Of a stretch of DNA of 64,000 nt, positions 33,612 through 43,007 are shown in pieces. The DNA comes from Peptococcaceae bacterium 1109. GTDB taxonomy: Bacteria; Bacillota; Limnochordia; Darwinibacteriales; Darwinibacteriaceae. Both the position numbers and the translations under genes were made by a program. Numbering within the stretch: position 1 is the first letter of the stretch; each line of letters begins with the position of its first letter. The notes beneath the pieces were generated by a model. It was given only the letters and a program-made list of their open reading frames with translations, made no database searches and had not been told where the DNA came from. The stretch lies in the NCBI GenBank assembly GCA_001028815.1, contig LDJB01000002.1:310001-374000 (forward strand). Direction: 5' to 3'.

Positions 33612-36600
33612 CTACTCCGCAATGTCGTCATCGCTGGCAAGCACATGGATATCCTCGAGTGCTAGGTCCTCATCTTCATCTAAATCGATAACATCCAGGT
33701 CTTCCACATCGAGGTCCACATCTAGGTCATCGCTGTCCAGGTCTAGATCGCCGTCCTCATCGCCGAGTTCTTCTTCGCCCTCGCTGTCTGATGGATCCAG
33801 CGCATCGTCGTCCTCGTCCTGGCCTTCGTCCTCATCATCGTCCTGCTTCCGACCACTGCGGTTGGCTCCAAGTGCGGTGCGCTCTACGCGCTGCACCGTC
33901 TTGCCTTGGATGTCTATCCCCAGCTCTTTCGCCATCTCGCTGATGTCCTCGTCCTCGTCGCGGATTTCGATCTCCTGCTCTTCTTCACTGAGCACTCGTA
34001 CATCCAGCCCCAGGCTCTGCAGTTCCTTAATGAGTACCCGGAAGGATTCAGGAACACCAGGTTCGGGGATGTTTTCCCCTTTGACAATGGCTTCGTAGGT
34101 TTTCACACGGCCCACCACATCGTCGGACTTGACAGTAAGGATTTCTTGGAGCGTATAGGCCGCACCGTAAGCTTCCAGGGCCCACACTTCCATTTCTCCA
34201 AACCGCTGTCCTCCGAACTGGGCCTTGCCACCCAAGGGCTGTTGGGTAACGAGGGAGTAAGGCCCTGTGGAACGGGCATGGATCTTGTCATCAACAAGGT
34301 GGGCCAGCTTGATCATATAGATGATGCCCACAGTAACAGGGTTATCGAAAGGTTCGCCGGTCCTGCCGTCGTAAAGCACGGTCTTGCCATCCCGGCGCAT
34401 ACCTGCTTCTTCCATGGTATCCATGACTTCGATTTCTGTAGCACCATCGAAGACAGGCGTTGCTACATGGAAGCCCAGGAGCTTGGCAGCCATACCCAAG
34501 TGTGTCTCGAGAACCTGCCCAATGTTCATCCGGGATGGCACGCCCAACGGGTTGAGGACGATTTGCACCGGCGTCCCATCAGGGAGGAAAGGCATATCCT
34601 CTACGGGCATAATCCGGGAGATAACACCCTTGTTCCCGTGGCGCCCGGCCATCTTGTCGCCTTCAGAAATCTTTCGCTTCTGGGCAATGTAGACCCGGAC
34701 CAGCTTGTTCACGCCTGGCGACAGCTCATCGCCGTTCTCACGAGAGAACACCTTCACATCGACGATGATGCCGCCTTCTCCGTGGGGCACTCTAAGGGAA
34801 GTATCCCGCACTTCCCGTGCCTTTTCGCCGAAAATAGCTCGCAGCAGGCGCTCCTCCGCGGTGAGCTCCGTCTCGCCCTTGGGCGTTACCTTGCCAACCA
34901 AGATATCGCCTGGCTTTACTTCCGCACCAATGCGGATGATGCCGTCTTCATCAAGGTTCTTCAGGCTGTCCTCGCCCACGTTGGGAATATCTCGGGTGAT
35001 TTCCTCGGGGCCAAGCTTAGTGTCACGAGCCTGAGCTTCATACTCTTCAATGTGAATGGATGTGAAGACATCGTCTTTAACCAGTTCTTCGCTGATTAAG
35101 ATAGCATCTTCGTAGTTGTAGCCTTCCCAAGGCATAAAGGCAACCAGAACGTTCTTGCCCAAAGCCAGTTCGCCCATATCGGTTGAGGGGCCATCGGCCA
35201 AAACGTCACCGGGGACAACTTCCTGGCCCACGAAACAGCGGGGCTTTTGGTTTACGCAGGTCCCTTGGTTAGAGCGCTTGAATTTGAGAAGGGGATAATA
35301 GTCCCGCTTGCCACTTGGGCGCTCCACCACGATTTCGCTGCCTGTGACCCGCTTAACGGTCCCAGCATGCTTTGCAAGGACTACCGCGCCAGAGTCCACA
35401 GCGGCCTTGTATTCCATCCCCGTTCCCACTAAAGGAGCTTCTGCTTCCAAGAGGGGCACAGCTTGGCGCTGCATGTTAGCACCCATCAGGGCCCGGGCGC
35501 CGTCGTCGTTTTCAAGGAACGGAATCAAAGCGGTGGCGATACTCACGATCTGCTTGGGGGAAACGTCCATGTACTCAACTTGCTCTGCAGGGACGATACG
35601 GATCTGATCCCGATCACGTACGGTCACCCGAGAGTTCACAAAGCGGTTATCATCATCCACCGGCTCGTTGGCCTGGGCGATGACGTAGTTATCTTCCTCG
35701 TCGGCCGTGAGATAATCAATCTCCTCGCTGACCACACCGTTCTCAACCCGCCGATAGGGCGTTTCGATAAAGCCATATTCGTTAATCCGCGCATAAGTAC
35801 ACAGTGCGGTGATCAGGCCTATGTTTGGGCCTTCAGGCGTCTCAATGGGACACATCCGGCCGTAGTGGGAATGGTGCACGTCCCGTACTTCAAAGCCTGC
35901 CCGGTCCCGAGAAAGGCCGCCAGGGCCCAAGGCGCTGAGGCGCCGCTTGTGGGTAAGCTCTGCCAAGGGATTTGTCTGGTCCATGAACTGGGACAGCTGG
36001 CTGGACCCGAAAAACTCCTTAATAGCAGCTACCACAGGGCGGATGTTGATCAGGGCTTGGGGAGTGATGATCTCCACGTCCTGAATGGTCATGCGCTCCC
36101 GTACAACCCGCTCCATCCTGCTGAGGCCGATCCTGAACTGGTTCTGTAGAAGCTCGCCCACGCTCTTTAAGCGGCGGTTGCCTAGGTGGTCGATGTCATC
36201 CACCGTGCCCAGATCGTAAGCCAGGTTTACCAGGTAGTTAATGGACGCCAAAATGTCGTCGGGGGTGATGGTGGTTACACCAGGATCTGGCTGATGGTTA
36301 GAGAAGAGGCGGACTTCATCCCCTTCCTTGGTGAGAAGAATGACAGAATTAATGCCCGCGGCGGTAATCTCTTCAGCACGCCGGCGGGTAATCCGTTCTC
36401 CCTTTTCCACCAGCAGCTCGCCGGTCTCTGGATCAACGATGTTCTCCCCGGCGACGCGATTAACAAGCCGCTCCGTCAGGCGCAGCTTTTTGTTGATCTT
36501 GTACCGCCCTACACCGGCCAGATCATATCGTTTTGGCTCATAAAAAAGGGTCTCAAACAACCCCCGGGCGCTTTCCTCTGTGGGCGGTTCACCTGGGCGC

Positions 36601-37313
36601 AGCCTCTTGTAAATCTCGATTAGGGCTTCATACTCATTGCTGGTGTTGTCTTTCTCGAGAGTGGCGCGAATTTGGGGAGCATCGTTGAACTCAGCCAGAA
36701 TCTTCGCATCGGTAGCCAAGCCGAGAGCCCGAATCAATACGGTGACCGGAAGCTTACGAGTCCGATCGATCCGCACGTAAATCACGTCATTGGAATCAGT
36801 CTCAAACTCCAGCCAGGCTCCGCGATTGGGAATAATATTTGCGGAAAACAGGCGCTTTCCGCTTGTATCTAAAGTATAATTAAAGTACACACCAGGAGAG
36901 CGAACCAGTTGGCTGACGATTACGCGTTCTGCGCCGTTGATTACGAAGGTCCCCTGCTCAGTCATGAGGGGGAAATCCCCCATGAAGACTTCCTGTTCCT
37001 TGACTTCGCCGGTTTCCTTGTTGATCAGGCGCACTCGCACCCTCAGCGGAGCAGCGTAGGTAGCATCACGTTCTTTGCATTCCTCTACGCCGTACTTCGG
37101 GTCCCCAAAACTGAAATCAATGAACTCCAATACTAGGTTGCCGGTAAAATCCTGAATTGGAGATATGTCCTTGAATACTTCCATGAGGCCCTCATTAAGG
37201 AACCACTCATAGGACTTCCGCTGAATGTCGATGAGATTGGGCATATCCAGGATCTCTTTGATCTTCCCGTAGTTGACCCGCTTTCGTTTTCCTTGATACA
37301 TGGCTACTGCCAA
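33612..37313 (-). CDS. rpoB: RNA polymerase subunit beta, acidic C-terminal tail
   Basis: 1233 residues. Recognisable stretches: rifampicin region [22 protein letters not shown] (fragment), [38 protein letters not shown], and the end of the conserved body [24 protein letters not shown] (part). After about residue 1157 comes a 76-residue tail in which 43 residues are Asp or Glu and none is Lys or Arg, with DLD repeats; the body otherwise matches the usual size (about 1190 in Bacillus). TTG start, 6 nt after AGGTGA; the next ATG (37301) is poorly placed. The gene ends 32 nt before the rpoC start. Confidence 0.98.
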
Positions 37314-37353
37314 AGGCCCTCACCTCTCCTTTTGGTTTCCCAAGAAACAACAC

Positions 37354-37380
37354 GAAAAGCAAGGGCTGTTCTTCCCTCGC
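37354..37380 (-). terminator. Attenuator-like hairpin in the rpoB leader
   Basis: Minus strand GCGAGGG (37380-37374) pairs with CCCTTGC (37365-37359) in 7 bp with one G-U, followed by TTTTCGTG. It lies 40 nt before the rpoB start, well inside the leader of the rpoB promoter, so termination here would cut rpoBC expression. Confidence 0.5.
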
Positions 37381-37510
37381 TTCTACTATGTTCATTGCGC
37401 AAATTCCGTTATCTACCCCCCAAAAAAACTTTCCAAGGACAGCAGGAATTTGAATGAGAGTGTTGAATTATTTCTAAACGGGAGTAATATCCCCATTTTG
37501 GCACTAACTG

Positions 37511-37539
37511 ATCATAACACAGGGGTTATTTGTTGTCAA
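37511..37539 (-). promoter_or_regulatory. Sigma-A promoter of rpoBC
   Basis: Minus strand TTGACA (37539-37534), 17-bp spacer, TATGAT (37516-37511). Predicted start near 37504, giving a leader of about 190 nt. It allows rpoBC to be made independently of rplJL. An inverted repeat surrounds the -35. The 309-nt rplL-rpoB gap is accounted for by this promoter, the leader and two hairpins. Confidence 0.85.
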
Positions 37540-37550
37540 GCCCCTGTGTT
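37516..37550. repeat. 10-bp inverted repeat across the rpoB promoter
   Basis: AACACAGGGG (37516-37525) and CCCCTGTGTT (37541-37550) are perfectly complementary, 15 bp apart. On the minus strand one arm lies just upstream of the -35 and the other fills the spacer next to the -10. Candidate operator, or a hairpin in readthrough RNA from rplL. Confidence 0.7.
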
Positions 37551-37575
37551 CCTTGCTTCATATCGAGCTAGTTTT

Positions 37576-37602
37576 AAGGGACCTTCTGCCAGAAGGTCCC
37601 TT
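37576..37602 (-). terminator. Hairpin after rplL
   Basis: Perfect 12-bp stem (AAGGGACCTTCT with AGAAGGTCCCTT, 3-nt loop) 20 nt after the rplL stop. The minus exit is AAAACTAG, not U-rich, so it is a leaky terminator or an RNase cleavage site separating rplJL from rpoBC, a place where many bacteria have attenuation or processing. Confidence 0.6.
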
Positions 37603-37622
37603 TGTTGTTTTGCAGTCTTGTA

Positions 37623-37997
<375 letters not shown>

Positions 37998-38029
37998 TTA
38001 TTTACCCTCCTAAGAATATGCAAATTTTA

Positions 38030-38557
38030 CTAAGCGCCAGCTTCTTCCTTCTTTTTCCGCACTGCTTCCAGCGCATAAACGAAGTTGCGGATGTTGCCCT
38101 GCAGTACGTTGACCATACCAGCAATTGGGCCTTGCATTGCCCGGAGAACCATGGACAAGAGTACCTCTCTGCTGGGGAGATCAGCAAGGGCTTTCACTTC
38201 CTCGGGCCCTAAGGCCTTGCCTTCCACCAATCCGCCTTTGATTTCCAGATCCTTGTTCTTCTTTGCGAAGTCACTGATAATCTTCGCAGCTACAACTGGG
38301 TCATCATAACCAAAGGCAATGGCAGTTGGGCCAGCGAGGTAAGGCTCAATGGCTTCTACCCCAGCCTCCCGTGCTGCCAAGATGGTTAAGGTGTTCTTGA
38401 GAACCTTAAACTCAACGCCCGCTTCCCTAAGCTGTTTCCGGAGTTCAGTAATCTCTCCTACATCTAGTCCCCGGTAGTCAGCGATTACCGCTCCCTGCAC
38501 ACGACTGAGGCGGTCGCGAATTTCCTGAACCTTTGCAACCTTTTCCGGTTTGGGCAT
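38030..38557 (-). CDS. rplJ: 50S ribosomal protein L10 (uL10)
   Basis: 175 residues: KVQEIRDRLSRVQGAVIADYRGLDVGEITELRKQLR (in parts), FKVLKNTL, and GPTAIAF. Base of the L7/L12 stalk; with L12 it represses its own leader. I start at ATG 38557, after GGGAGGTGAAAGG; the upstream in-frame ATG (38629) lies in the leader terminator region. Confidence 0.98.
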   Translation of the reverse strand: MPKPEKVAKVQEIRDRLSRVQGAVIADYRGLDVGEITELRKQLREAGVEFKVLKNTLTILAAREAGVEAIEPYLAGPTAIAFGYDDPVVAAKIISDFAKKNKDLEIKGGLVEGKALGPEEVKALADLPSREVLLSMVLRAMQGPIAGMVNVLQGNIRNFVYALEAVRKKKEEAGA

Positions 38558-38581
38558 CCTTTCACCTCCCTTTTCTACAAC

Positions 38582-38762
38582 AAAAAAGACCTCCGCAGAC
38601 AGGGCGGAGATCTCAAATAAGCTGAACATGGAGGCTGACTGGTTCGGCAGCGAACACAGTCATCTCTACTCTTCTCCGACCTCGGCGGGCGAGATTGCTC
38701 TCCTTCGGTACTAGTGTACACCTGCTGTCTACGGCCTCTGTGCTATTCTGTTGTCAATCAAC
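38582..38762 (-). ncRNA. L10 leader with attenuator
   Basis: The leader between the promoter start and rplJ carries the sequence CCGTAGACAGCAGGTG, resembling the L10-binding core of known L10 leaders, and ends in an intrinsic terminator: GATCTCCGC (38612-38604) pairs with GCGGAGGTC (38596-38588, one G-U), then six T. This is the expected autoregulation of rplJL by the L10(L12)4 complex. Confidence 0.82.
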
Positions 38763-38768
38763 GGCGAT

Positions 38769-38797
38769 AGTATATCACGTTGGTTTCTACTAGTCAA
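38769..38797 (-). promoter_or_regulatory. Sigma-A promoter of rplJL
   Basis: Minus strand TTGACT (38797-38792), 17-bp spacer, TATACT (38774-38769), beginning 6 bp after the rplA stop. Predicted start near 38762. Confidence 0.85.
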
Positions 38798-38802
38798 CAA
38801 CC

Positions 38803-39498
38803 TTAGCGAGAGATATCTTGGGTATTTACCCTGAGTCCAGGGCCCATTGTGGACGACAGTGACAGCTTGCGCAGGTAGGTACCGCGGGCTGCTGCTGGCT
38901 TAGCCTTAATGATGGCGTCCATCAAGGTCTTGAGGTTTTCCATCAGCTGCTCGTCAGTGAAGGAAACCTTGCCGATGGGCACGTGCATGCCCGCTTCTTT
39001 GTTAACCCTGAATTCGACCTTACCAGCTTTAGAGTCGTGCACCGCTTTGGCCACGTCAAAGGTGACTGTGCCTGTCTTCGGGTTGGGCATGAGGCCCCGT
39101 GGGCCAAGGATACGCCCGAGCTTACCAACTACGCCCATCATGTCAGGGGTGGCGATGGCCACATCAAAGTCTGTCCAGCCGCCTTGGATCTTAGCAGCCA
39201 GATCTTCGTCGCCTACAAAATCTGCCCCTGCATCCCGTGCTTCTTGGGCTTTCTCGCCCTTTGCAAACACGAGCACCCGCACATCACGGCCGGTACCGTG
39301 GGGAAGTACAACTGTACCCCGGACTTGTTGGTCCGCGTGCCGGGGGTCGACACCCAGCTTCATAGCCACTTCCACCGTTTCGTTGAACTTGGCTGTGGCA
39401 CACTTCTTTACCAAAGCAATGGCTTCTTCTGGCGTATAATATTTTCCCGGTTCAATCAGCTTCATGGCTTCCTGAAGCCGCTTACCACGTTTTGCCAT
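38803..39498 (-). CDS. rplA: 50S ribosomal protein L1 (uL1)
   Basis: 231 residues: [38 protein letters not shown] (part), [16 protein letters not shown]. The mobile stalk protein at the E site; it represses its own mRNA in many bacteria. ATG with AAAGGAGGAAC upstream. The 74-nt gap before it contains GTGGGAGG, similar to its 23S target. Confidence 0.98.
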
Positions 39499-39572
39499 GG
39501 TCTGTTCCTCCTTTGTGGTGCAGACGGAACGTAGTTCCTCCCACGTTTTTCAATCTATTCCCAGCGTGTTCC

Positions 39573-39998
39573 CTAGTCTTCGACAACAACGCCCATGCTC
39601 CGGGCAGTGCCTTCCACCATCCGCATGGCTGCTTCCACAGAGGCAGCGTTCAGATCAGGCATTTTCAGCTCCGCAATCTCACGGACCCTATCCCGCTTGA
39701 TGGTGCCCACTTTTTCCCGATTGGGAACTCCGGAACCACGCTCGATATTCATAGCCTTCTTGATTAAGACCGCCGCGGGCGGAGTCTTGGTGATGAATGT
39801 GAATGACCGGTCTTCATAGACGGTAATCACTACTGGAATAATCATTCCAGCTTGGTTTGCGGTCCTTTCGTTAAAGGACTTGCAAAACTCCATAATGTTG
39901 ACACCATGTTGTCCTAGTGCCGGACCTACCGGCGGCGCCGGGTTTGCCTTACCTGCAGGGACCTGCAGCTTAATCAAGGCTGATACTTTCTTTGCCAC
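39573..39998 (-). CDS. rplK: 50S ribosomal protein L11 (uL11)
   Basis: 141 residues: [31 protein letters not shown] (in parts), the C-terminal domain with [25 protein letters not shown]. Part of the GTPase centre, target of thiostrepton and needed for stringent response. GTG start; 73 nt after nusG. Confidence 0.98.
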
Positions 39999-40071
39999 GG
40001 CGCATACACCCCCTTAAGATTAATGTGGTAATGGCGGATTATTCATCCTCCCACTAAAAAGAGCGCAACCC

Positions 40072-40611
40072 TTATAGTTTGGCCACTTGACTGAAATCCA
40101 ATTCTACAGGGGTTTCGCGTCCAAACATTGAAACATTGACCCGCAGTTTGCCCTTCTCAGGGCTGATTTCGCTGATCGTACCGGAAAAGTTGACGAAGGG
40201 CCCAGCCACAACGCGCACCGTTTCCCCAACGGAAAAGTCGCTTTTCGGAGCCCCTTCAAAGCCCATACCCCTTAGTATAGTATGAACTTCGTGTTCTGCC
40301 AAGGGGATCGGCTTCACACCAGAGCCTACAAACCCTGTTACGCCCGGCGTGTTACGCACCACATACCAGGAATCGTCAGTGATGATCATCTCCACCATGA
40401 CGTATCCTGGGAAAATCTTCTTGGGCGTCACCTTCCGCTTGCCGTCTTTGTACTCCACCACTTCTTCAGTGGGGACCACAACGCGGAAGATCTTGTCTTC
40501 CATTCCCATGGATTCTACACGCCGCTCTAGGTTTGCCTTTACCTTATTCTCATACCCAGAATAAGTATGGATGACATACCACTGCTTGTTTGGGTGATCC
40601 TTTTCGCTCAT
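40072..40611 (-). CDS. nusG: Transcription elongation factor NusG
   Basis: 179 residues: NGN domain (WYVIHTYSGYENKVKANLERR, in parts; FPGYVMVEM; VRNTPGVTGFVG) and KOW domain (GETVRVVAGPFVNFSGTISEI). It binds RNA polymerase and modulates pausing and Rho action. ATG start whose only good ribosome site (GGAGGG) is about 20 nt upstream, separated by a small hairpin. Confidence 0.98.
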   Translation of the reverse strand: MSEKDHPNKQWYVIHTYSGYENKVKANLERRVESMGMEDKIFRVVVPTEEVVEYKDGKRKVTPKKIFPGYVMVEMIITDDSWYVVRNTPGVTGFVGSGVKPIPLAEHEVHTILRGMGFEGAPKSDFSVGETVRVVAGPFVNFSGTISEISPEKGKLRVNVSMFGRETPVELDFSQVAKL

Positions 40612-40629
40612 GCCGCAGGGCTTTAGCCC

Positions 40630-40860
40630 TTACCCTCCTAACCTACGAAGTAGGTTCAGTGCTCCGGTGGCTAGAACGTCGACTAATCCACTGAATATTG
40701 CGACCACGACGACCGTGACGACAACCACGATGGTATATGTGATCAGCTCTTTACGGTTTGGCCAGGATACCTTGCGGAGTTCACTGCGAGCTTCCCGCAG
40801 GTACTTGGTAAATCTGGCCCAAACTGTAGGTTTGCTCTGCACTGCTGCCACAATCCTCAC
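40630..40860 (-). CDS. secE: Protein translocase subunit SecE
   Basis: 76 residues: amphipathic segment KYLREARSELRKVSWPNRKELITYT (in parts) followed by one membrane helix (about residues 42-65). The short form typical of Gram-positives. Start uncertain: GTG 40860 or GTG 40851, the latter better spaced from AAGG. It clamps SecY in the translocon. 17 nt after rpmG. Confidence 0.96.
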   Translation of the reverse strand: MRIVAAVQSKPTVWARFTKYLREARSELRKVSWPNRKELITYTIVVVVTVVVVAIFSGLVDVLATGALNLLRRLGG

Positions 40861-40877
40861 ATCCTTCTCGTCAAACC

Positions 40878-41027
40878 CTAGCGGGTTTCTTTGTGCACGG
40901 TATGAGTTCTACAGGTCTTGCAATACTTCTTCAGCTCGATGCGATCCGGGTCGTTCTTCCTATTCTTCATAGTACGGTAATTCCGGTTCTTGCAATCGAC
41001 GCATTCCAACGTGATACCGACACGCAC
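40878..41027 (-). CDS. rpmG: 50S ribosomal protein L33 (bL33), zinc form
   Basis: 49 residues, the usual length, with CVDC and CKTC pairs for zinc and the [15 protein letters not shown] segment. I start at GTG 41027, 8 nt after GGAGG; the open frame to 41072 runs through the promoter -10. First gene of rpmG-secE-nusG-rplK-rplA. Confidence 0.96.
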
Positions 41028-41062
41028 GCCTGCCACCTCCAGTAGGTCAAAATACCTTTTAG

Positions 41063-41091
41063 AATTTAACACATTTCAGGATCGCTGTCAA
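41063..41091 (-). promoter_or_regulatory. Sigma-A promoter of rpmG-secE-nusG-rplK-rplA
   Basis: Minus strand TTGACA (41091-41086), 17-bp spacer, TAAATT (41068-41063). It lies just after the tuf terminator; predicted leader about 29 nt. Confidence 0.82.
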
Positions 41092-41107
41092 TACTGAGCC
41101 AAAGTGG

Positions 41108-41142
41108 AAAAACAGGCGAGGCAGAGAGCTGTCCTCGCCTGT
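41108..41142 (-). terminator. Intrinsic terminator after tuf
   Basis: Perfect 10-bp stem ACAGGCGAGG (41142-41133 region) with CCTCGCCTGT (41121-41112) on the minus strand, then TTTTCC. It lies 16 nt after the tuf stop. Confidence 0.9.
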
Positions 41143-41157
41143 GTAACTCACTTCTTC

Positions 41158-42360
41158 CTACTCTAAAATCTTGGTTACAACGCCAGCACCCACAGTGCGG
41201 CCGCCTTCACGAATAGCAAAGCGCAGGCCTTCCTCCATCGCGATTGGAGTGATAAGCGATACGCTGAGGCGGGTGTTGTCGCCAGGCATAACCATTTCGG
41301 TGCCCTCGGGGAGCTCCACGATACCGGTTACGTCAGTGGTCCGGAAGTAAAACTGAGGCCGGTAGCCTTGGAAGAATGGGGTGTGCCGGCCGCCTTCATC
41401 CTTGGTCAGGACGTATACTTCGCACTCAAACTTGGTGTGCGGAGTAATAGAACCGGGCTTGGCCAGAACTTGGCCCCGCTCAACTTCATCACGGGTAATA
41501 CCGCGGAGCAGAACACCAATGTTGTCACCAGCTTGAGCTTGGTCAAGGAGCTTGCGGAACATCTCTACGCCGGTAGCAACGGTCTTCCGGGACTCGTCTT
41601 GCAGGCCAACGATGGAAACTTCGTCGCCAACCTTGATTACGCCACGCTCTACACGGCCAGTTGCAACTGTACCGCGGCCGGTGATGGTGAAGACGTCCTC
41701 AACAGGCATGAGGAAAGGCTTGTCAACGTCCCGCTCTGGGGTTGGGATGTACTCATCAACTGCATCCATGAGCTTCTGCAGCTGAGCACATGCTTCCCCA
41801 GGAGCACCAGCCTGGAGTTCTTCCAGAGCCTTCAGGGCGCTGCCTGCAACTACGGGGATGTCGTCGCCAGGGAACTCGTACTCGCTGAGGAGTTCACGGA
41901 CTTCCATCTCAACCAGTTCCAGAAGCTCAGGATCGTCCACCATATCAGCTTTGTTCAGCCATACAACGATGGCAGGCACGCCAACCTGGCGGGCAAGGAG
42001 AATGTGTTCCCGAGTTTGAGGCATGGGGCCGTCAGCGGCGGAAACAACCAGAATTGCACCGTCCATTTGGGCGGCTCCGGTGATCATGTTTTTCACATAG
42101 TCAGCGTGGCCTGGGCAGTCTACGTGAGCGTAGTGCCGCTTCTCCGTTTCATACTCCACGTGGGACGTATTGATGGTAATGCCCCGCTCCCTCTCTTCAG
42201 GAGCATTGTCGATTTCCTCGAACTTCTTTACCTTGCTGGTGTCGCCATGGGCGAGCAGCATGGTAATCGCAGCAGTAGTTGTGGTCTTGCCGTGGTCAAC
42301 GTGACCAATGGTGCCCACGTTCACGTGCGGCTTAGTTCTTTCAAACTTTTGCTTTGCCAT
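41158..42360 (-). CDS. tuf: Elongation factor Tu, second copy
   Basis: 400 residues, nearly identical to the copy at 25369-26571 (differences at 171, 175 and the last residue). Same G motifs ([20 protein letters not shown]). ATG 42360 is preceded by GGAGGAAAA; the frame stays open 16 codons further. It lies downstream of a tRNA cluster and upstream of rpmG, like the tRNA-tufB locus of enterobacteria, and has its own terminator. Confidence 0.99.
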
Positions 42361-42436
42361 TTTTCCTCCACTCCTCCCTAATGAACGGGTTATCTGATCG
42401 ATATACAATTCTCTCCACGACTAGAAAGTCCTGCTT

Positions 42437-42643
42437 TTACAGAACTGCATAATACAGTGGGAGAAATGAACCAACCATGAACCAGGTGAGGTCGAAGGAG
42501 GCACTTTCCTCAAGCCGTTCCGACCACAACCCCCCGAGAAGTACGGCAGTGGGCCAGCTGAGCCACACCGGGAGCACCAAGAGGTGCACCGCCGTTATTA
42601 AGCTTCCCAGGATCAAACTGATTAAACCATTCCGCACTCCCAT
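42437..42643 (-). CDS. Small membrane protein, unknown function
   Basis: 68 residues, ATG with GGGGGG 6 nt upstream and a plausible promoter. Three hydrophobic stretches (about residues 4-18, 21-39 and 53-67) interrupted by SERLEESASFD suggest two or three membrane helices. I do not recognise a family. It lies between the tRNA cluster terminator and tuf, 76 nt before tuf with no terminator, so it may share a transcript with tuf. Confidence 0.6.
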   Translation of the reverse strand: MGVRNGLISLILGSLITAVHLLVLPVWLSWPTAVLLGGLWSERLEESASFDLTWFMVGSFLPLYYAVL

Positions 42644-42669
42644 AAGCGGCCCCCCTTTGCAGGTACTTC

Positions 42670-42698
42670 ATCTTATGGGAACGGGAATCTTGAGGCAA
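42670..42698 (-). promoter_or_regulatory. Possible promoter for the small membrane ORF and tuf
   Basis: Minus strand TTGCCT (42698-42693), 17-bp spacer, TAAGAT (42675-42670), right after the tRNA terminator. No better promoter was seen closer to tuf. Confidence 0.5.
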
Positions 42699-42699
42699 C

Positions 42700-42725
42700 A
42701 AAAAACCATCAGCAGAAACTGACGG
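42700..42725 (-). terminator. Intrinsic terminator after the tRNA cluster
   Basis: Minus strand CCGTCAG (42725-42719) pairs with CTGATGG (42712-42706), 7 bp with one G-U, followed by TTTTTTG. It starts 15 nt after the fMet tRNA CCA end. Confidence 0.85.
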
Positions 42726-42739
42726 TCTTGATTTGCAAT

Positions 42740-42816
<77 letters not shown>

Positions 42817-42827
42817 ATGTTTATAAA

Positions 42828-42915
42828 TGGTGGAGGGGACAGGATTCGAACCTGTGAAGGCGTCAGCCAACAGATTTACAGTCTGCCCCCTTTGGCCAGC
42901 TTGGGTACCCCTCCA
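42828..42915 (-). tRNA. tRNA-Tyr (anticodon GTA)
   Basis: 88 nt including encoded CCA. Acceptor TGGAGGG/CCCTCCA, anticodon loop CTGTAAA, long variable arm typical of bacterial tRNA-Tyr, T-loop GGTTCGAATCC. Confidence 0.96.
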
Positions 42916-42931
42916 CGATATTACTTCCTAC

Positions 42932-43007
42932 TGGAGCCGGTGGAGGAACTCGAATCCACAACCTCTCGATTACAAGTCGAGTGCTCTACCAATTGAGCTA
43001 CACCGGC
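42932..43007 (-). tRNA. tRNA-Thr (anticodon TGT)
   Basis: 76 nt including encoded CCA. Acceptor GCCGGTG with CACCGGC, D-arm AGCTCAATTGGTAGAGC, anticodon loop CTTGTAA, T-loop ATTCGAGT. First of three tandem tRNA genes. Confidence 0.96.

Follow-up and report, generated by a model that had tools for sequence, protein, structure and literature searches.

The conserved control element of the rplL-rpoB gap in this bacterium is, to judge from its sequence, a leader hairpin adjoining rpoB, separate from the 10-bp inverted repeat on the rpoBC promoter that first drew attention to the locus. It is the hairpin that matters more than the repeat and that is the lasting lead. Within the window (the whole stretch of 64,000 nucleotides analyzed here), the genes run on the minus strand in the order rplJ-rplL-gap-rpoB-rpoC, as named from sequence and from relatives, and the 309-nt gap between rplL and rpoB holds, in the sense of that strand, the rplL hairpin, then AACACAGGGGC-TTGACA-ACAAATAACCCCTGTGT-TATGAT, and then the rpoB leader. 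The features are as follows:

37623 to 37997, minus strand: rplL, ribosomal protein L7/L12
37576 to 37602, minus strand: rplL-rpoB intergenic hairpin with a 12-bp stem, behind rplL (the rplL hairpin)
37541 to 37550, minus strand: left (upstream) arm AACACAGGGG of the inverted repeat, in paired form in the window's genus only
37534 to 37539, minus strand: -35 hexamer TTGACA of the rpoBC promoter, seen in 20/20 family genomes
37516 to 37525, minus strand: right arm CCCCTGTGTT of the inverted repeat, the spacer end with the TRTG motif and the first T of the -10
37511 to 37516, minus strand: -10 hexamer TATGAT of the rpoBC promoter
37314 to 37504, minus strand: rpoB leader RNA, its start predicted from the promoter, with a AUUCAACA-like block and an invariant UCCUGC
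37345 to 37384, minus strand: conserved rpoB leader hairpin AAGCGAGGG...CCCUUGCUUUU, a covariance-model match of 46.5 bits
33612 to 37313, minus strand: rpoB, RNA polymerase beta subunit, listed with a TTG start and with an in-frame ATG at 37301-37303

Elsewhere on the same strand, a ribosomal protein L10 leader (RF00557) is matched upstream of rplJ at 38573-38752 (44.9 bits, gathering score 44), and the C-terminus of RpoB (33612-33900) is a long, very acidic tail rich in Asp and Glu.

From the rpoBC promoter to rpoB, the leader measures about 190 nt. Leaders were aligned with the promoter as anchor, in one alignment (A1) from 20 family genomes and 2 of 11 genomes from the rest of the order, and in another (A2) from the same 20 and 9 of the 11, the two excluded genomes (G022 and G024) having longer leaders in which the hairpin is present by pattern. 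In all 29 aligned leaders of the order, TCCTGC, AGCGAGGG and CCTTGCTTTT are invariant, and these leaders share a single helix in their consensus fold, AAGCGAGGG/CCCUUGCUU, whose G-U pair is kept in 29/29 (the arms can also be written AGCGAGGG...CCUUGCUUUU, and the stem AAGCGAGG...CCUUGCUUUU). A consensus fold of the whole family gap (20 family and 2 order genomes) contains the leader hairpin and other short helices, with one pair overall changed on both sides, and lacks the inverted repeat; the core pairs of the hairpin are unvarying there except for one-sided changes at the ends, and hence show no covariation. Covariation appears above the core: among 135 distinct hairpins, upper pairs 1, 3, 4 and 5 beyond the core pair above all of 300 shuffles, and pairs 2 and 6 do not exceed them. 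The 56 hairpins behind covariance model R1 were chosen by the pattern GCGAGG...CCTTGC, so the invariance of those twelve bases in a third alignment (A3), in R1 and in the set of 135 hairpins is partly a product of that choice.

Across the 135 hairpins the tail behind the stem begins with four U (96-100%), has U at position 5 in just 1%, and is U-rich again at positions 10 (91%) and 12 (83%). A terminator scan calls the leader hairpin, at 37345-37384, and its form suggests a weak terminator or a pause site. Pairing of an upstream antiterminator with the 5' arm of the hairpin was also sought, and in 93 leaders the best upstream duplex was no better than in shuffled sequence, its median rank being 54.5 of 100 in 32 leaders and 50 of 100 in the other 61. 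Upstream of the hairpin, a second block of the form GG-N(1-2)-A[AT]AAT occurs in 29 of 60 fetched leaders (L193-L252) against 8% of shuffled ones, lying 29-34 nt before the hairpin match in 15 of those 29, and the bases after the -10, TTAGTG (window 37502-37507, minus strand), are similar in many members of the order, with related starts (ATGTCA, ATGTTA) found more widely.

The hairpin reaches well beyond the family. By pattern it is present in all 31 fetched genomes of the order, the family included, and is patchy outside the order, with 1 of 9 fetched genomes from the rest of the class carrying it. Of 80 rpoB loci from public genomes, 34 have the strict pattern GCGAGG...CCTTGC ahead of rpoB, and among the 78 whose upstream sequence was long enough for comparison, 39 show no more than two mismatches to 17 stem and tail bases (0/78 when shuffled); named carriers include records of Desulfosporosinus, Desulfofundulus, Desulfotruncus and Pelotomaculum, and 11 loci named Paenibacillus are without the hairpin (5-6 mismatches). 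A scan of 398 whole genomes from the phylum with R1 gave a match in 128 and none in 270 at an E-value of 0.01 or better, these E-values being rough by the tool's own warning and some of the genomes belonging to the same species as training loci. The hairpin lies beside rpoB in 29 of the best 30 R1 loci and elsewhere in one; of 80 further genomes, 70 have a match 21-244 nt ahead of rpoB and on its strand, and 10 have one elsewhere, with 18 such off-site matches listed in all. With one genome common to both sets, the hairpin thus precedes rpoB in 99 of the 109 genomes checked out of the 128 matched.

No Rfam 15 family matches the leader at its gathering score, either in the window or in 18 of the 30 best R1 loci, where the matches above gathering score are L10 leaders and one tRNA. 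The best known-family match in the gap, RefA9, was rejected because it scored 28.3 bits where the gathering score is 49, as were a weak match to ncr1015 in one locus (L180) and a PyrG_leader match in another (L183; 40.4 versus 65 bits) that lies between rplL and rpoB but off the hairpin. Lacto-rpoB RNA (RF01709), listed for Lactobacillales, resembles the leader hairpin in being named for rpoB, and it sits before that gene. It matches above cut-off in none of 40 related genomes and nowhere in window positions 36900-43000; two of the 40 give weak matches (22.8 bits, cut-off 40) on contigs other than that of rpoB, and in a control of 14 genomes Lactococcus lactis gives a match. The absence of any above-cut-off match in the 40 related genomes led us to reject Lacto-rpoB as the identity of the hairpin. 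Among the titles and abstract openings listed for open-licence papers, we found no description of this rpoB leader hairpin.

The inverted repeat is a different matter. An earlier note on this DNA had described a perfect 10-bp inverted repeat around the -35 of a near-consensus rpoBC promoter, and this description is confirmed, with arms at 37541-37550 and 37516-37525. Read on the minus strand, the sequence is AACACAGGGG-C-TTGACA-N17-TATGAT, such that the repeat spans 37516-37550 with a gap of 15 nt (37526-37540) between its arms, and the right arm ends on the initial T of the -10; the promoter itself has a 17-nt spacer and a TG ahead of the -10.

The start of rpoB could be obtained in 20 of 22 family genomes (the window's own included), and all 20 upstream regions were used. 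TTGACA, a spacer of 17 nt and, one base ahead of the -10, TRTG (TGTG in 16, TATG in 4) are present in every one of them, with TATCAT (15), TATGAT (4) or TACTAT (1) as the -10. The exact right arm CCCCTGTGTT recurs, without a matching left arm, in 4 of the 18 family genomes outside the genus (G014, G010, G012 and G004), and two more (G009 and G018) have CCCCTGTG followed by a different base. The right arm is thus promoter sequence common to the family. Comparison of the repeat across 40 genomes (20 of the family and 20 from the rest of the order and class) confines it to the genus of the window, in which two genomes were compared: the window's own (G000) and one other species (G001). In the register of the window, both form 10 of 10 Watson-Crick pairs and the other 18 family genomes 1-6 of 10. 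Likewise, when the 26 nt ahead of the -35 are set against the spacer region, the longest complementary run measures 10 nt in G000, 11 nt in G001, 4-7 nt in the other 18 family genomes and 3-6 nt in the 20 further genomes. A weaker, 7-nt pairing in G010 (AACACAG/CTGTGTT), in another register, was put down to chance, as its genus mates, with varying left bases, follow no clear rule in retaining it.

These comparisons bear most directly on the reading first proposed for the repeat, that of an operator at which a dimeric repressor would block the -35 and spacer. Two species retain a perfect palindrome centered next to the -35 of a near-consensus promoter, which is what such an operator would look like, and palindromes of this kind are found on the -35 and -10 elements of genes controlled by dimeric repressors. 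However, once the rplL-rpoB gaps of relatives were aligned, all 18 family genomes outside the genus proved to retain the -35, the spacing and a -10 without the repeat, which is present in just one other member of the genus and so, unlike those operators, is not conserved along with its promoter. Loss of the repeat from relatives that keep the promoter is the outcome that the earlier note had named as refuting its proposal. The right arm, moreover, is already explained by the promoter, and the half-sites, 25 bp apart from center to center, are unusually spaced, being separated by about 2.4 helical turns and hence lying on nearly opposite faces of the helix. Nor did a search for further copies yield any: the repeat is single-copy in the 2.70-Mb, 11-contig genome of the window and in G001, and a degenerate search returned only this locus and its G001 equivalent, with none in G005, a genome of the next genus. 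Allowing two mismatches, the left arm plus -35 has two additional sites in G000 and one in G001, against zero and two, respectively, when read backwards as a control. The operator proposal of the earlier note is therefore unsupported, and we regard it as the least likely of the readings considered and very improbable in itself; the repeat is probably not a conserved repressor switch.

A second possibility is that the arms complement each other by coincidence, a chance 10-bp match beside the promoter spacer having been inherited by two related species. Perfect repeats are not rare in the window, which contains eight distinct centers with perfect arms of at least 10 bp and loops of 3-40 nt where 30 shuffles average 2.1 (sd 1.5), and a 10-bp repeat somewhere within 64 kb is ordinary. 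Roughly half of the right arm is in addition constrained by the promoter, through TRTG (20/20 genomes) and the initial base of the -10, so that few of its positions are free to vary. Yet when the 309-nt gap was shuffled 5000 times, just 58 of the resulting sequences had one or more such repeats; the gap itself contains two (the second being the rplL hairpin), a number reached in 3 of 5000. Pairing left with right arms from different genomes among the 40, with both left arms of the genus excluded, gave a best complement of 9 nt and never 10, and within the genus the pairing has outlasted three differences. Coincidence therefore seems unlikely, if less so than an operator.

Those differences come from the comparison of G000 with G001, whose RpoB N-terminus is 94% identical over 271 residues. 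G001 reads AACACAGAGGC-TTGACA-ACAAAAAGCCTCTGTGT-TATGAT: one pair is altered on both sides (GGGG/CCCC in G000, GAGG/CCTC in G001), a single pair in two species, and an eleventh pair extends the stem to 11 bp. The left arm is identical at 10 of 11 positions, but the adjoining 24 nt on its upstream side agree at 4/24 without gaps or 15/27 with gaps; the leader matches at 182 of 200. In G005, the left stretch is AAAACAGAGGC and the right arm CCCCTATGAT, with 6 of 10 pairs formed, and 9-10 of the 11 left-arm bases are retained despite the broken pairing, so similarity in the left arm need not reflect pairing. When G005 (GAGG on the left, ACCCC on the right) serves as the outgroup, every one of the three changes that distinguish the arms of G000 and G001 raises pairing, namely an A to G change in the left arm of G000 and C to T and A to G changes in the right arm of G001, the latter two together copying the left arm. 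Three more arm differences, whose polarity G005 cannot assign, set G005 apart from both. The spacer position of the compensated pair varies freely in the family (C in 12 genomes, A in 4, T in 2, G in 2), and by a hand estimate the chance of a compensated match, given the number of arm changes, is about 6-11%. The paired change fits either a maintained stem or homogenization of the arms by template switching, between which one event cannot separate.

Under the latter, the repeat would be a neutral quasi-palindrome, in which template switching during replication perfected a spacer and a partly complementary upstream stretch with no selected function. Template switching is reported to be able to create perfect stems and to repair the pairing of existing ones (PMC8794818), and the outgroup comparison, with every difference raising pairing and two G001 changes copying the left arm, agrees with this. 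Nevertheless, at least two separate homogenizing events would be needed, the polarity depends on one outgroup with three further differences of undecided direction, and selection for a stem predicts the same pattern. We rank this origin a close second, as possible but doubtful.

The reading that we tentatively favor, at somewhat less than even confidence, is that the repeat is a genus-level stem on an ordinary rpoBC promoter of the family and that any function it has is exerted through RNA, as a read-through or processing stem. The earlier note had raised a hairpin on read-through RNA from rplJL as its alternative, and this idea gains some favor from the one sister species, in which pairing is kept with changed sequence through a single compensated pair, the sign of an RNA hairpin that the note had named. 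Local folding of the stretch that starts 30 nt ahead of the -35 and ends at the predicted start point yields z-scores of -2.8 in G000 and -5.4 in G001, against -1.9 to +2.6 in the other 18 family genomes, and predicts a stable RNA stem between rplL and rpoB in both species of the genus. This stem follows directly on the rplL hairpin, about 25 nt further on. Every one of the 20 family genomes folds into a strong hairpin at the place of the rplL hairpin; in the window, the U-tract of that hairpin in the sense direction is weak. The better T-tract of the rplL hairpin is on the plus strand, and the terminator scan accordingly assigns it to the antisense direction. The sequence behind the repeat stem contains no U-tract, so the repeat itself does not qualify as an intrinsic terminator, which needs a G+C-rich stem with a U-tract directly behind it; the scan lists no terminator there either, although it considers loops of only 3-8 nt and the stem has a loop of 15 nt. 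According to the read-through reading, the stem would form only in transcripts that continue from rplJL: RNA polymerase that passes the rplL hairpin would make a second stable stem, of 10-11 bp, which may contribute to termination, slowing or processing of that transcript, and rpoBC would thereby rely more on its own promoter.

In E. coli, the rplJL-rpoBC junction has an attenuator and is processed by RNase III between rplL and rpoB; a 1980 paper by Barry, Squires and Squires, cited in PMC5371410, is a related reference. The arrangement predicted here would resemble it in placing hairpins between rplL and rpoB that limit or process ribosomal-protein read-through, but differs in having a near-consensus rpoBC promoter within the gap, with one hairpin overlapping that promoter. 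Two serial hairpins behind a stop codon also recall hairpin-cluster terminators, although their spacing of 25 nt exceeds the spacing of under 15 bases given for such clusters (PMC8355165).

Taken together, the gap may hold a leader RNA that is uncatalogued, occurs widely in the phylum and sets the synthesis of RNA polymerase, with the hairpin as a weak terminator or pause and the repeat as an extra gate specific to the genus, a proposal that we consider plausible but rather less than probable. The near-invariant stem AAGCGAGG...CCUUGCU, with its kept G-U pair and covarying upper pairs and with four U and then a non-U behind it, would in this proposal be a deliberately weak terminator or a pause that answers to RNA polymerase or to a transcription factor, to which the promoter-borne inverted repeat would add, in the genus of the window, a second gate on rplJL read-through. 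The repeat itself matters little, beyond illustrating that promoter sequence common to a family can resemble half an operator. To our knowledge, the control of RNA polymerase amount is little understood outside E. coli, and a hairpin that precedes rpoB in many families of the phylum, and that matches no Rfam 15 family at gathering score in the window and 18 loci, would offer a concrete, testable handle on it.
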